Of a stretch of DNA of 25,232 nt, positions 1,236 through 19,851 are shown piece by piece. The stretch covers positions 1 to 25,232 of the IMG/VR virus record IMGVR_UViG_3300037507_002525; one strand, written 5' to 3'. How positions within the stretch are numbered: the first letter of the stretch is position 1; every line of letters starts with the position of its first letter. Below the pieces are notes generated by a model. That model had not been told where the DNA came from. It saw only the letters and a list, made by a program, of their open reading frames with translations, and made no database searches. This stretch comes from a virus. Position numbers and translations under genes: made by a program.

Positions 1236-1241
1236 GCACCT

Positions 1242-1270
1242 AGTGTGGCAAATCCTGCCGGTGGTGTCAA
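1242..1270 (-). promoter_or_regulatory. Leaderless promoter, copy A
   Basis: TTGACA at 1265-1270, a 17-bp spacer and CACACT at 1242-1247 lie six bases before the ATG at 1235. Upstream of the -35, 24 further bases to about 1294 are conserved with three other copies, suggesting an activator or repressor site or an UP-like element. Unlike the other copies, this one has no 13-bp-stem hairpin directly upstream. Confidence 0.8.
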
Positions 1271-1317
1271 GCAGAAATTGTCGCCCAGACGCGAGTCGGC
1301 GGTGCTCATCCATCTGG

Positions 1318-1376
1318 GCGACGACGTTCGCTGGGGTTGGCATGGCGGGCGGCGGGGTGGTGCGTGGGGTGGTCAT
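1318..1376 (-). pseudogene. Duplicated 5' fragment of the 193-aa helix-turn-helix gene
   Basis: From ATG 1376 the reading MTTPRTTPPPAMPTPANVVAQ matches the start of the 193-aa gene (MPTPRTTPPPAMPTPADVAAQ), and the DNA match continues for about 55 bp with few changes. The ATG overlaps the TGA of the upstream helix-turn-helix gene (ATGA). The homology stops where the promoter module of cassette A begins. This looks like the scar of an insertion into the start of the 193-aa gene. Confidence 0.75.
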
Positions 1377-1573
1377 GCCGCACCTCGGAAGGTGGCGATG
1401 GCAGCTTCGATGGCGTCGACGGGGATGAGACGGCGGCGGCCGATGCGGACGCTGGCCAGTTGCCCGGTGCCGAGCAGGCTGTAAACGGACGTGCGTGAGA
1501 TGCCCAGTTCGGCTGCGGCCTGCGGGATGCTCAGCAGCTTCGGAGGCCGGTTGTGTTCGTTGGGGGTGTGCAT
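1373..1573 (-). CDS. Excisionase-type helix-turn-helix protein, 66 aa
   Basis: The start is ATG 1573 with AGAAAGG six bases upstream, supplied by the repeated terminator/RBS module. After a short polar N-terminus the protein is one winged-helix/excisionase-like domain: LLSIPQAAAELGISRTSVY (helix-turn-helix), then LLGTGQLASVRIGRRRLIP (the beta-wing seen in MerR/Xis-type domains), then DAIEAAIATF. The length fits phage excisionases and small regulators. No integrase is visible nearby, so a role in excision cannot be separated from a role as transcription regulator. It ends in an ATGA overlap with the truncated gene copy downstream. Confidence 0.85.
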   Translation of the reverse strand: MHTPNEHNRPPKLLSIPQAAAELGISRTSVYSLLGTGQLASVRIGRRRLIPVDAIEAAIATFRGAA

Positions 1574-1656
1574 CTGGTGCCTTTCTGGGTGCCGTCCAGC
1601 GGGGTGCTGGGCGGTCACCGCACCGGCCCGGTGGTGCCGGGCCGGACGGTGATTCA
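1574..1656 (-). repeat. Terminator/RBS repeat module, copy 2
   Basis: Second copy of the 935-1021 module. It contains the same 9-bp hairpin at 1623-1645 and supplies the Shine-Dalgarno AGAAAGG of the 66-aa helix-turn-helix gene. It begins right at the stop codon of a gene fragment (1654-1711). Confidence 0.85.
1623..1645 (-). terminator. Terminator-like hairpin
   Basis: Perfect 9-bp stem CCGGCCCGG/CCGGGCCGG with a 5-base loop, identical to 982-1004. It lies about 60 bp after the stop of the 67-aa gene and has no U-tract. Confidence 0.5.
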
Positions 1657-1711
1657 GAGGGCGTTGAGGACGCTGACGGCGGCGGCGGCGTCGGTCACGT
1701 CGACGTCAACG
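1654..1711 (-). pseudogene. Orphan 3' end related to the 99-aa gene
   Basis: Read on the minus strand this segment encodes NVDVDVTDAAAAVSVLNAL and a stop, very close to the C-terminus of the 99-aa gene (LDVDVTDAAAAARILNAL). The DNA match covers nearly 60 bp. No start codon of its own belongs to it, so it is a gene remnant lying just after the 67-aa gene. Confidence 0.7.
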
Positions 1712-1909
1712 TTCCCACTCGGCATAGTCGACGACGCCACCATCGTCATCGCAGAGCGTGACGGACATCCACAGGATCCCGACACCATCGTCATCGGCGA
1801 GTTCCGCTTCCAACAGGTCGGAGGCTGAAGCGTCGTCGAACCAGTCGAGACCGTAACCGCCGAGCCGGTAAGCCGTCTCGAACTGGACATAGGCTGACCG
1901 CATCGACAT
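1706..1909 (-). CDS. Small acidic hypothetical protein, 67 aa
   Basis: The frame starts at ATG 1909 (MSMRSAYVQFETAYRL), two bases after the stop of the 99-aa gene, so it is probably co-transcribed with it from promoter copy B. It is strongly acidic (WFDDASASDLLEAELADDDG, later CDDDGGVVDYAEWER) with no membrane segment. It is flanked by the real and the duplicated 3' end of the 99-aa gene, so it may have been gained by recombination. I do not recognise it. An acidic DNA-mimic or antirepressor role would be speculation. Confidence 0.6.
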   Translation of the reverse strand: MSMRSAYVQFETAYRLGGYGLDWFDDASASDLLEAELADDDGVGILWMSVTLCDDDGGVVDYAEWER

Positions 1910-1911
1910 GG

Positions 1912-2211
1912 TCAGAGGGCGTTGAGGATGCGGGCGGCGGCGGCGGCGTCGGTCACGTCGACGTCGAGCATGACGGCGTCGAAGCCGTAGCGGCTGTCGT
2001 CGGTGTCGATGAGGAGCCCGGCGTTGGCGAGCGCTGCGACGGCGGCGTCGAGGTCCTCGATGAGCGCTTCGCGCAGCTCGGCTTTGCTGACGGTGTCGTC
2101 GCGGTCGGGCCCGGCGGGGCCGGAGTCGTCGGCGGTCCGCCATGCGAGGCCGGGGCAGTCCGGGTCGGCGTAGAGCGTGATCGTTGCGGCGGTGCTGGTG
2201 CTGTTGTTCAT
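1912..2211 (-). CDS. Acidic hypothetical protein, 99 aa (leaderless cassette B)
   Basis: The start is ATG 2211, six bases after the -10 CACACT of promoter copy B; there is no Shine-Dalgarno. The N-terminus MNNSTSTAATITLYADPDCP resembles the Asn/Ser/Thr start of the 70-aa cassette protein (MSNSNSTSTVTSS). The middle is acidic and helical (SKAELREALIEDLDAAVAALANAGLLID), and the end LDVDVTDAAAAARILNAL recurs as a fragment at 1654-1711. The open frame continues upstream through the promoter to an ATG inside the hairpin at 2298. I do not favour that start, because it would require translation through promoter and terminator sequence. Confidence 0.65.
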   Translation of the reverse strand: MNNSTSTAATITLYADPDCPGLAWRTADDSGPAGPDRDDTVSKAELREALIEDLDAAVAALANAGLLIDTDDSRYGFDAVMLDVDVTDAAAAARILNAL

Positions 2212-2217
2212 GCACCT

Positions 2218-2246
2218 AGTGTGGCAGACCTCGGCAGGGCTGTCAA
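2218..2246 (-). promoter_or_regulatory. Leaderless promoter, copy B
   Basis: TTGACA at 2241-2246, a 17-bp spacer and CACACT at 2218-2223, with the ATG A at 2211 as the predicted transcription start. The upstream conserved block runs to 2270 and abuts the hairpin at 2271. Confidence 0.82.
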
Positions 2247-2270
2247 GCAGAAATTGTCGCCCAGACGCGA

Positions 2271-2300
2271 CGATGCCCCCGGCCGAAGCCGGGGGCATCG
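2271..2300 (-). terminator. 13-bp-stem hairpin between cassettes C and B
   Basis: A perfect 13-bp stem (arms CGATGCCCCCGGC and GCCGGGGGCATCG) with loop CGAA lies 20 bases after the stop of the 203-aa gene. No U-tract follows. The stem is perfectly symmetrical and could act on either strand. It is fused to promoter copy B in one repeated unit. Confidence 0.7.
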
Positions 2301-2319
2301 AAGGGGCCGTCGGGGCCGG

Positions 2320-2931
2320 TCAAGCGCCGCCCCACTTAGCCCAGCAGATCGGGCCGATCCCACGAGCGATGGACTCCTCGTTGTCGAGCCGGGTGCCGCA
2401 GATCATGCAGATGCCCGTGCGGCGTCCCCATGCTGCGGCGGCGTCACGGTCAGCGATCCGCATCTCGGGGCGGAGCTTGGCGATCAGACCGGCCTCGTAG
2501 TCCCACTGCTTCGCTGCGACGAGCCGCTTGGCGTAGGTGCGGCCAGCCTGGGAGGTGACCACCTTGGCGACCTCGCCATCCCCCAGGTCGTAGTAGCCCT
2601 CGGCCAGCTCGACCGGCTCGACCGGCGCAGCCTTGGGCTGACGGGCGGCCATCTTGGAGCGCATCGACTCGGCTGCGGCACGCTGCTTCGGGGTCAGAGA
2701 CCCGTAGCGGGCGTGGGCCTTCGCCAGCGACTGGGCGAACTCGGACCAGGTCTGGGCCTTCAGCCAGTCGGCGAGGTCCCGATCGGCGGCGCTGGCAGCG
2801 ACCTTGACTGCAGCCTTGGCGATCGCCTCGGCTTCGGAGACGATCGGGCCGCAGCACACCTGGCAGGCCGAATCGAACCCGGCGTCCCACCCGGTCCCGT
2901 CGCAGATCTTGCACGTCATGGTGTTATTCAT
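2320..2931 (-). CDS. Zinc-ribbon phage protein, DUF6011-like C-terminus, 203 aa (cassette C)
   Basis: The start is ATG 2931, six bases after the -10 GACAAT of promoter copy C, so the mRNA is predicted to be leaderless. An N-terminal cysteine cluster (CKICDGTG, then CQVCC) looks like a zinc knuckle. An Ala-rich helical middle follows. The C-terminal 30 residues hold CMICGTRLDNEESIARGIGP and then ICWAKW, the Cys-x2-Cys-G-x-x-L ... S-x-x-x-G-x-GP-x-C pattern of small zinc domains (DUF6011 type) common in actinophage non-structural proteins. The molecular role of that family is not established. Its own promoter and flanking hairpins make it a self-contained unit. Confidence 0.75.
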   Translation of the reverse strand: MNNTMTCKICDGTGWDAGFDSACQVCCGPIVSEAEAIAKAAVKVAASAADRDLADWLKAQTWSEFAQSLAKAHARYGSLTPKQRAAAESMRSKMAARQPKAAPVEPVELAEGYYDLGDGEVAKVVTSQAGRTYAKRLVAAKQWDYEAGLIAKLRPEMRIADRDAAAAWGRRTGICMICGTRLDNEESIARGIGPICWAKWGGA

Positions 2932-2937
2932 GCATCC

Positions 2938-2966
2938 ATTGTCGCAAACCCTGGCAGGGGTGTCAA
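2938..2966 (-). promoter_or_regulatory. Leaderless promoter, copy C
   Basis: TTGACA at 2961-2966, a 17-bp spacer and GACAAT at 2938-2943, with ATG at 2931. The -10 is closer to consensus than in copies A and B. The upstream block to 2990 has a single change (CTAG for CCAG on the plus strand). Confidence 0.82.
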
Positions 2967-2990
2967 GCAGAAATTGTCGCCTAGACGCGA

Positions 2991-3020
2991 CGATGCCCCC
3001 GGCCGAAGCCGGGGGCATCG
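2991..3020 (-). terminator. 13-bp-stem hairpin between cassettes D and C
   Basis: Identical in sequence to the hairpin at 2271-2300, with a CGAA loop. It lies 15 bases beyond the stop of the 101-aa gene and directly abuts promoter copy C. Confidence 0.7.
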
Positions 3021-3035
3021 AAGGGGCCGTCGGGC

Positions 3036-3341
3036 TCAGCGGGTGGCAGCCCGGGCTGCCCGGGCTGCCCGGAAGCACTCGGAAGCGTAGCGCTTGCCGC
3101 TTGCCGTGCCAACCGACCACCACTCGCCGCAGCCGCAGCAGCACTTGTTGCTTGCGGCGCGGGCGACGTCGGCGCCGGTGAGTCCGGGGAGCTGCTTCGC
3201 CGCGCACGTCGTGCCCAGGTAACGCACGTCGGCCTCGGAGAACTCCAGCGCCACGGTCCGCTTCAGCCCGCTCTTGCCGCAGCACTCGCAAGTGGTGATC
3301 TCATCGGTGATGCCCAGGATCTTGGGTCCGGTGTTCTTCAT
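3036..3341 (-). CDS. Cysteine-rich zinc-ribbon protein, 101 aa (cassette D)
   Basis: The start is ATG 3341, six bases after GACAAT of promoter copy D. The N-terminal half has CECCGKSGLKRTVAL ... RYLGTTCAAKQL, a Cys-x2-Cys-G with a later G-x-x-C as in small zinc domains related to the one in the neighbouring 203-aa protein. A second cluster CCCGCGEWW follows, then an Ala/Arg-rich tail (FRAARAARAATR). Two related zinc proteins in adjacent, identically driven cassettes suggest paralogy or selection for a shared function. Nucleic-acid binding is plausible from the zinc ribbons and basic tail but not shown. Confidence 0.7.
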   Translation of the reverse strand: MKNTGPKILGITDEITTCECCGKSGLKRTVALEFSEADVRYLGTTCAAKQLPGLTGADVARAASNKCCCGCGEWWSVGTASGKRYASECFRAARAARAATR

Positions 3342-3347
3342 GCAGCG

Positions 3348-3376
3348 ATTGTCGCAAACCCTGCCCGGGTTGTCAA
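3348..3376 (-). promoter_or_regulatory. Leaderless promoter, copy D
   Basis: TTGACA at 3371-3376, a 17-bp spacer and GACAAT at 3348-3353, with ATG at 3341. This is the first promoter after the late structural operon and should re-start transcription for the small-gene array. Confidence 0.82.
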
Positions 3377-3400
3377 GCAGAAATTGTCGCCCAGACGCGA

Positions 3401-3430
3401 CGACGCCCCCGGCCGAAGCCGGGGGCATCG
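3401..3430 (-). terminator. Hairpin ending the structural operon
   Basis: The same hairpin as at 2271 and 2991 but with one C-A mismatch in the stem. It lies 11 bases after the stop of the repetitive 383-aa protein and so probably terminates the late operon. No U-tract. Confidence 0.65.
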
Positions 3431-16721: not shown

Positions 16722-16904
16722 TCAGCCCTCCTTGCGGGTGTTGGTCGGCCAAGCAGCGCCGACAGAGACAAGCTCATACCGGCCGTCGCCCACGTGAACC
16801 CAGGCGTCGAACGGGAGATCGTTCACGGGGCCACCAGACGGCCCAGGATCGCCCAGGACAGCCTCAGGGGCAGTGTCGGCAGTGTCGGTAGCGGGACGGG
16901 GCAT
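16722..16904 (-). CDS. Small hypothetical protein, 60 aa
   Basis: ATG 16904 follows TAGGAGG with suitable spacing, and the stop lies three bases from the next start. The first half is Pro/Gly/Asp-rich (ATDTADTAPEAVLGDPGPSG) and the second half is short strands (AWVHVGDGRYELVSVGAAWP). It is a short, Gly/Pro-rich head- or tail-region protein of unknown function. Confidence 0.6.
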   Translation of the reverse strand: MPRPATDTADTAPEAVLGDPGPSGGPVNDLPFDAWVHVGDGRYELVSVGAAWPTNTRKEG

Positions 16905-18490: not shown

Positions 18491-19851
18491 AACGTCGGGG
18501 CGATGAGGCCGGTGCCGCCGATGGTCGAGATCGCCGTCGGATAGCGCCCGGCGGTGAACGCCTGGAACTTGCCGACAGCGAGACGGACCTGACCGGGAGA
18601 GGTCGACAGGGTCTGCTCGAACGAGAACGTCATCTCGGGCCCATCCCACAGCAGGATGTCGGTTGCGCGAGCAACGATGATGATGTCCTCGTTGGTGCCC
18701 GCCCCAAGGTTGGTGGGGATGTTGGCGTCGGTGATCACGGGCAGACCCATGACACGGCCGACGACCTGGCCGTACTCGGCAGCAGTCCCAAGACCGACGA
18801 CCGAGTTCGGCGCGACAAGGGAGAATTCGAACGTGGGCCGGGAACCGTCAAGAGCGGCGGTGAGCCAACCCCAACGGCGCGGATGCATGTAGATCACGGT
18901 TGCCGGAGCGAACCGGAGAGCGTTGACACGCTGAATCGCATCAGCGAGCTTCGGCCACAGCAGCGCGACGGTCGGCGAACCCGACGTGAACGTCACAGCA
19001 TTGATGCCGGACACCTGCAGCACACCACGATGCTGCGGGGCAGTGCCGTTGCCGTTGATCGCGGACACGTTGGAGGAGACCATGAGCGCAGCCATCAGAT
19101 CCGGGAAGATCACGCTGTCGACGGTCGCTCCGCCGCGCATGAACAGGGTCCGGGAGATGTCCTGCTGTGCCGACACGAGGTTCACCGTGACAGTCAGATC
19201 GGTCGTCGCCATGTCCTGCTCATTGAAGCCCGCGGCCTCAGACGTCATCGCCGCAGCAGACCCGGTGGTCACACGCGGAATCACGAACGACACACCGTCA
19301 GTCGGCAGAGCCCGATCAGTCAGCGAGTTCAAAAACGGCGAACCGGCACGGGCCAGCGGCGCGTACTGATCCAGCAGATAGCGGGGCGGGACAAGCCCGT
19401 TGAACGTCGACACGGTCGTGTCACGAGACTCCAGACTGTGCCGGTGCAGACGCTGCTCGGCAGACGCCAGATCACCCGACCGGAACGTCTGCGCGTACAG
19501 GTCAGCGAAGAACGAATGCTCCCCGTCGGGCCGATAGGTGCGGGCCTCCGCACGGACACGCACAGACCCGTCAGGGGTCGGCAGAGCAGCCGCAGCAGCC
19601 TGCGCGGCAGCACGAGCCTCCAGGCGGGCGACCTCGGCATCGTGACGCTCCTGGAGCGACACACGAGCCTCATCGACAGCACGCAGCTCACTACGCAGAC
19701 GATCCAGGTCAGCAGTCTCAGCCTCAGTCAGGACAGCGTCACCACGCGCCTCGACAACAGAGATGATCTCGTCCATGCGCCCCTCAAGAGCGGCACGGGC
19801 AGTCAGGTTGGCACGCAGCTGCGCACGCAGCTGCTCGATCAGAGAATCCAT
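18487..19851 (-). CDS. Major capsid protein, HK97 fold, 454 aa
   Basis: ATG 19851 follows CTAGGAGG by ten bases. The first ~90 residues are a coiled coil (MDEIISVVEARGDAVLTEAE, then LRSELRAVDEARVSLQERHD), the delta/scaffold domain of HK97-like capsids that is usually removed by the prohead protease. The rest has typical HK97 motifs: LVPPRYLLDQYAPLARAGSP, VIPRVTTGSAAAMTSEAAGF, TVTVNLVSAQQDISRTLF, IYMHPRRWGWLTAALDG and VGRVMGLPVITDANIPTN. Around 380 residues after cleavage fits a mature capsid subunit. A TTG at 19983 would add 44 residues but I find no support for it. Confidence 0.95.
   Translation of the reverse strand: MDSLIEQLRAQLRANLTARAALEGRMDEIISVVEARGDAVLTEAETADLDRLRSELRAVDEARVSLQERHDAEVARLEARAAAQAAAAALPTPDGSVRVRAEARTYRPDGEHSFFADLYAQTFRSGDLASAEQRLHRHSLESRDTTVSTFNGLVPPRYLLDQYAPLARAGSPFLNSLTDRALPTDGVSFVIPRVTTGSAAAMTSEAAGFNEQDMATTDLTVTVNLVSAQQDISRTLFMRGGATVDSVIFPDLMAALMVSSNVSAINGNGTAPQHRGVLQVSGINAVTFTSGSPTVALLWPKLADAIQRVNALRFAPATVIYMHPRRWGWLTAALDGSRPTFEFSLVAPNSVVGLGTAAEYGQVVGRVMGLPVITDANIPTNLGAGTNEDIIIVARATDILLWDGPEMTFSFEQTLSTSPGQVRLAVGKFQAFTAGRYPTAISTIGGTGLIAPTF

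Follow-up and report, generated by a model that had tools for sequence, protein, structure and literature searches.

Cluster O mycobacteriophages (the Corndog group) carry SigA-like promoters whose predicted transcription start is the first base of the next gene's start codon (PMC4351075), and a SigA-like phage promoter predicted to yield a leaderless mRNA has been reported for Adephagia gene 90 (PMC11373665). For leaderless initiation in mycobacteria, an ATG or GTG at the 5' terminus is both required and sufficient (PMC4633059). Here, the DNA under study is a 25,232-bp viral record from IMG/VR (IMGVR_UViG_3300037507_002525, hereafter the window), in which four minus-strand sites, lying within 2.2 kb, share the arrangement TTGACA-17-(GACAAT or CACACT)-6-ATG. 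Three features probably explain this array, designated units A to D: SigA-type leaderless promoters, one per short unit; a shared upstream element; and insulating hairpins.

The original prediction described two copies carrying CACACT and two carrying GACAAT, and all of its details hold; the same pattern has no match in 100 shuffles of the window. With the A of the ATG numbered +1, the -10 hexamer spans -12 to -7, the spacer -29 to -13, the -35 hexamer -35 to -30, and a conserved upstream element -59 to -36. The -35 and -10 hexamers are 17 bp apart in all four copies, within the 16-18 bp expected of a leaderless SigA-type promoter, and the -10 hexamer ends 6 bp before the ATG in all four, where such promoters place it about 6-7 bp before an ATG or GTG. 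Each copy also has the TG of an extended -10. The -10 hexamers retain A at the second position and T at the sixth, and the first T is missing.

Conservation among the four copies is distributed unevenly. The number of identical columns is 23 of 24 in the upstream element, confirming the predicted block of about 24 bp, and 6 of 6 in the -35. It falls to 9 of 17 in the spacer, is 4 of 6 in the -10 and 7 of 9 in the discriminator plus ATG, and drops to 6 of 27 in codons 2-10. Divergence of the spacer with retention of both flanks suggests selection on the element, and not only recent copying. The element reads TCGCGTCTGGGCGACAATTTCTGC, with one base different in unit B. It contains AATTT at the position of a proximal UP element, and its first part could form a small dyad, GTCGC-N6-GCGAC in three copies and shortened to 4 bp in the fourth. 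The window contains exactly four copies of the 20-mer TGTCAAGCAGAAATTGTCGC, and a search allowing up to three mismatches returned no fifth. A second -10 region within the upstream block, GCGACAAT (GCGACAATnnCTGCnTGA also fits the start of unit A), was considered and dropped because no -35 lies 17 bp upstream and because units C and D lack it.

The translation signals of the cassettes differ from those of the structural genes in the same phage. Many structural genes have a Shine-Dalgarno sequence (AGGAGG, for example) located 4-6 nt ahead of the start, as at 16904, 10556, 8532 and 6192. As predicted, none of the four cassette ATGs is preceded by a workable one. The sequence AGGTG does end 1 nt before the ATG in two copies; it would be unusable, being too close to the ATG and lying ahead of the point where the mRNA is predicted to begin. 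The predicted leaderless start is strengthened by this contrast, together with the 6-nt peak in unrelated phages described below, and the four sites are very likely leaderless promoters.

Three of the four promoter copies are preceded by the hairpin CGATGCCCCCGGC-TTCG-GCCGGGGGCATCG. Its 13-bp stem is present as foreseen, with one U-G pair in place of U-A in the first hairpin, which preserves pairing. Folding z-scores of the three range from -3.4 to -4.4, and it is likely that they act as terminators. The proposal that each small gene is self-contained is right in part: units A and B each have a promoter-like site and a hairpin, and the other two differ. Unit C continues through a second gene (1906-1706) to another kind of hairpin module, and no hairpin precedes the promoter of unit D.

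If this explanation is correct, expression of the right arm of the phage would involve: division of small non-structural genes, probably early in timing, into short transcription units; opening of four of these units by a host SigA (sigma-70 type) promoter with a consensus -35, a 17-bp spacer and an extended -10; and a transcription start placed on the A of the ATG by a -10 lying 6 bp before the start codon. The resulting mRNA would be leaderless, and the ribosome would start at its 5'-terminal AUG independently of a Shine-Dalgarno sequence. The hairpins before three of the promoters would insulate the units from one another. The 24-bp element, at about -36 to -59, most likely sets a common strength or control, acting via the alpha subunit of RNA polymerase or via a phage or host regulator. 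In the original prediction all units answered to one common control signal. The far better conservation of the upstream block than of the spacer agrees with this, and the control itself is proposed from that pattern; the case for shared control through the element is evenly balanced.

The search suggested earlier, for promoters with a fixed 6-bp distance between -10 and ATG, did find rows of them in unrelated environmental phages. A scan of IMG/VR by geometry only (C-TTGACA-14-TG-2-ACANT-6-ATG) returned at least 120 matching stretches, most with one match and some holding rows. These environmental records were selected by the motif, and the count of phages with such arrays is a minimum. Of 26 promoter-like sites counted in one stretch, L148, 17 lie at exactly 6 nt and 2 at 7 nt; L192, L214 and L235 have 8, 6 and 5 sites at 6 nt, respectively. 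After removal of the bait sites, the -10 to ATG distances among the matches listed number 53 at 6 nt, 14 at 7 nt and 7 at 5 nt, over a background among the same matches of about 3 for every distance between 10 and 40 nt. In a control of 224 stretches not chosen by the motif (2.46 Mb), no promoter lies at 6 nt. Whole-record counts of TTGACA-16/18-NANNNT-5/7-ATG reach 26 (59 kb), 22 (158 kb), 21 (G049, 146 kb), 17 (67 kb), 14 (34 kb) and 12 (37 kb), with 0 or 1 match per record for the reversed pattern.

Alignment of 50 of the 6-nt sites, 22 of them contributed by L148 and L192, resolves the shared features. T occupies the first -10 position in 50 of 50, A occupies position 4 in 38 and position 5 in 39, and the extended -10 G is present in 35. 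A Shine-Dalgarno-like word precedes 3, and the sequence upstream of the -35 is A/T-rich. The rows in L148, L192, L214, L235, L189 and L196 resemble the array of the window: they place TTGACA-17-TAnnnT-6-ATG before many small genes, almost never with a Shine-Dalgarno sequence, and are A/T-rich upstream of the -35. They differ in keeping the first T of the -10 and in mostly lacking a long identical upstream block. The terminases of G049, G053 and G054 fall into three different groups: T4-like cyanophages; Providencia and Nitratiruptor phages; and, distantly, Bacillus phages. By this evidence, rows of leaderless promoters are recurrent in unrelated phages, with the window as one case. That one leaderless promoter per gene or short unit, set in rows, is a general early-gene strategy in many unrelated phages is a more tentative proposal, falling slightly short of an even chance. 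In the record with the T4-like cyanophage terminase (G049, 146 kb; L148 / L369 at 130-146 kb), G+C content jumps from ~0.42 to 0.55 at ~132 kb, and the last 14 kb contain most of its leaderless-spaced promoters; this jump reflects either a chimeric assembly or an imported segment.

The block itself did not recur. An 18-mer search for the exact block elsewhere in IMG/VR and a 20-mer search of 84,980 GTDB species genomes found none. A relaxed form gave 14 matches in IMG/VR; these are taken as chance because none precedes a promoter-start unit. The promoter's 3' part, in its window-like form, was found at one single site, in a 66-kb phage (L370). Related phages had been suggested as a place to look for the block, and 48 records of terminase relatives, the closest distinct phage being ~60% identical, have no such arrays; relaxed promoter scoring of 224 stretches of relatives gave no 6-nt peak.

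Several observations weigh against leaderless promoters under a shared element. Because the block is private to this record, no cross-phage conservation stands behind it. GACAAT and CACACT lack a base that every comparison site keeps, and the promoters may be weak or need help. The hairpins have no U-tract. Both the transcription start and leaderless translation are read from sequence. Finally, the terminase relatives found in actinobacteria and their phages are only distant (35-37%).

A rival reading takes the 30-bp block, -35 included, as chiefly a site for a phage repressor or activator, like the cluster K ESAS or the repressor sites of temperate actinophages. The promoters would then be switched off or on together, with the leaderless start of secondary importance. 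Consistent with this, the block is better conserved than the spacer, a dyad is available in it, and an HTH_17/excisionase-like protein is encoded within the array. However, the dyad is a short one at the same place as the base of the hairpin, the block has no copy beyond these four promoters, and nothing ties a regulator to it. An operator array of this kind has a probability somewhat below even; it is compatible with leaderless promoters, and both can hold. The identity between copies could instead reflect recent copying, and not selection for control, with hairpin and block repeated through duplication or recombination at short repeats. Units B and C share 52 identical bp spanning hairpin and block, and the same 3.4 kb holds other duplicates (a 78-bp module, a 65-bp gene start and a 54-bp gene end). 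Simple recent copying does not, however, give a diverged spacer: identity ends at the -35 and returns at the -10 and ATG, and the genes beside the copies are unrelated. Such an origin is possible and leans towards doubtful.

In the original prediction each unit was a moron-like cassette carrying its own promoter and terminator. As morons, the units would be lysogenic cargo placed among the phage genes. Units A and B do have the order promoter, open reading frame (ORF), hairpin, and the genes have no known structural role and are placed between the tail genes and the rest. This reading is nevertheless unlikely. The excisionase-like protein is the only sign of lysogeny in the window, where no integrase was identified, and in other phages, homologues of the DUF6011 protein of unit B belong to gene runs of the ordinary early type. 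An empty site was seen in no relative; the syntenic contig described below ends before the array. Ordinary leadered transcription, with true starts upstream (at other promoters, or by read-through out of the structural operon) and no use of the TTGACA/-10 pairs, would account for the imperfect -10 hexamers and for an in-frame upstream ATG with a possible Shine-Dalgarno sequence in unit D. Against this stand the four exact geometries with an extended -10 and their absence from shuffles, the ATGs without a usable Shine-Dalgarno sequence, and the strong hairpins directly upstream of three of them. Leadered transcription is accordingly very unlikely, and SigA-type leaderless promoters with a shared upstream element and insulating hairpins are retained as the best explanation.

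All four cassette ORFs appear to be coding, with third-position G+C of 0.87-0.94 and the best codon score in the named frame. For the DUF6011 protein, no close relative was found in IMG/VR. Its homologue in Arthrobacter phage Wollypog is gene 39, which overlaps both neighbours in a run of small genes directly before a helicase. This context suggests an early, non-structural role, and the unit B gene looks more like a separately promoted early gene than like lysogenic cargo. The HTH_17 protein is a candidate regulator. In unit D, the predicted leaderless ATG (1235) shares its reading frame with another ATG farther upstream, at 1376. The latter overlaps the HTH stop codon, and GAGGTG, a possible Shine-Dalgarno sequence, lies 4 nt before it. 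This gene may have two starts.

Other repeats are present in the same part of the window. A 78-bp module, at 935-1012 and 1576-1653, comprises two strong hairpins and a Shine-Dalgarno region, each copy lying before a different gene; this repeat is a second, leadered kind of gene-start module. A 65-bp 5' gene start is duplicated at 867-931 and 1312-1376, and a 54-bp 3' gene end at 1654-1707 and 1912-1965, each pair being 94% identical. The duplicated gene starts and ends within the same 3.4 kb show that the region has been shuffled in modules. No Rfam families or tRNAs were found in the window.

The window is a fragment of an actinophage-like siphovirus; its first bases fall within an ORF. The recognised structural genes are all on the minus strand in the usual siphovirus order, and the array begins directly past the tail genes. 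By terminase, the nearest isolates are actinophages (Arthrobacter phages, 35% identity), and two Nocardia altamirensis loci match at 36-37% identity; an actinobacterium is the probable host. Among syntenic contigs the nearest is L097, which keeps the gene order, with a tape measure 54% and a Kelch-like protein 66% identical, and stops within the repeat-protein gene, short of the array position. The repeat protein of the window starts MSLLLLL, and its L097 counterpart (18630-19191) has the same start and a different repeat unit. A 5.3-kb contig from another metagenome, L005, encodes a terminase protein 100% identical to that of the window, and by this identity is the same or a very close phage, sampled twice. 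Homologues of the Kelch-like gene, 61-70% identical, occur in contigs spanning 0.33-0.70 G+C, which suggests wide transfer of this tail-region gene.

Table 1. Positions of genes, promoters and repeated elements in the window.
Feature	Position	Strand	Remarks
Large terminase	23344-21911	-	
Major head protein	19983-18487	-	
Minor tail protein	16718-15537	-	
Tape measure	14669-12024	-	
Kelch-like protein	6192-4759	-	
Thr/Val-rich structural repeat protein	4593-3442	-	
Hairpin	3401..3430	-	13-bp stem, TTCG loop; past repeat-protein gene (ends 3442), before unit A
24-bp upstream element, unit A	3377..3400	-	sequence conservation
Promoter A	3348..3376	-	-35 TTGACA 3376-3371; -10 GACAAT 3353-3348; extended TG; ATG 3341
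ORF A, 101 amino acids, Cys-rich (zinc-ribbon-like)	3036..3341	-	predicted leaderless; no Pfam/PHROG family
Hairpin	2991..3020	-	end of unit A, before unit B
24-bp upstream element, unit B	2967..2990	-	one base different
Promoter B	2938..2966	-	-35 TTGACA 2966-2961; -10 GACAAT 2943-2938; extended TG; ATG 2931
ORF B, 203 amino acids, DUF6011 (PF19474, phrog_636)	2320..2931	-	predicted leaderless
Hairpin	2271..2300	-	end of unit B, before unit C
24-bp upstream element, unit C	2247..2270	-	sequence conservation
Promoter C	2218..2246	-	-35 TTGACA 2246-2241; -10 CACACT 2223-2218; extended TG; ATG 2211
ORF C, 99 amino acids	1912..2211	-	predicted leaderless; no family
Small ORF past ORF C, in unit C	1906-1706	-	
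Second module type, double hairpin and Shine-Dalgarno region	1576..1653	-	97% copy at 935-1012
HTH_17/excisionase-like DNA-binding protein, 66 amino acids	1373..1573	-	
24-bp upstream element, unit D	1271..1294	-	no hairpin before it
Promoter D	1242..1270	-	-35 TTGACA 1270-1265; -10 CACACT 1247-1242; extended TG; ATG 1235
ORF D, 70 amino acids	1023..1235	-	predicted leaderless; no family

If rows of leaderless promoters are a general strategy, they would allow the gain, loss and shuffling of small genes as units that depend on no operon and no ribosome-binding site, and the window would represent a G+C-rich actinophage version with an added shared control element. If such rows are common, the phages that carry them would rely on translation independent of Shine-Dalgarno sequences, and units could move between genomes while keeping their expression. 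Where small phage genes lack a Shine-Dalgarno sequence, gene callers easily miss their starts or set them wrongly. The fixed rule of a -10, 6 bp and an ATG locates such starts, and the same scan is applicable to many phages.

The original prediction of repeated promoter-start modules is borne out, and the best analogue within cluster K mycobacteriophages is not the one it named. The start-associated sequence (SAS) of cluster K has 13 conserved bp and occupies the ribosome-binding site, 3-9 bp ahead of the start (PMC11373665). It is a poor analogue: SAS mRNAs are leadered, whereas the window has no ribosome-binding site, the 6 bp before its ATGs are variable, and its conserved part lies upstream of and in the -35. 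The ESAS, a repeated motif before small genes that bears a SigA-like promoter, is a better one (PMC11373665). Even here, the ESAS combines its promoter with imperfect inverted repeats of 15-17 bp, and the window has only a 5-6-5 dyad upstream of the -35. ESAS and SAS, like the motifs of cluster EF Microbacterium phages, share with the window a repeated intergenic motif before several small non-structural genes (PMC11373665, PMC7302621). Cluster EC and EI Microbacterium phages have 18- and 30-bp repeats in short intergenic gaps among small genes (PMC7302621). In cluster EC the motif is found 22-30 bp ahead of start codons; no promoter or leaderless role has been assigned (PMC7302621), and the sequences differ from those of the window.

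In the open literature searched, neither rows of leaderless promoters in phages nor a set of four leaderless starts that share a single, almost invariant upstream element was found, which is not proof of absence. Single leaderless phage promoters are known, and rows of them seem little described. In Cluster O, such promoters are few per genome and the 17-bp palindrome is a separate repeat (PMC4351075), whereas the four units of the window, within their short span, share one 30-bp block that includes the -35.

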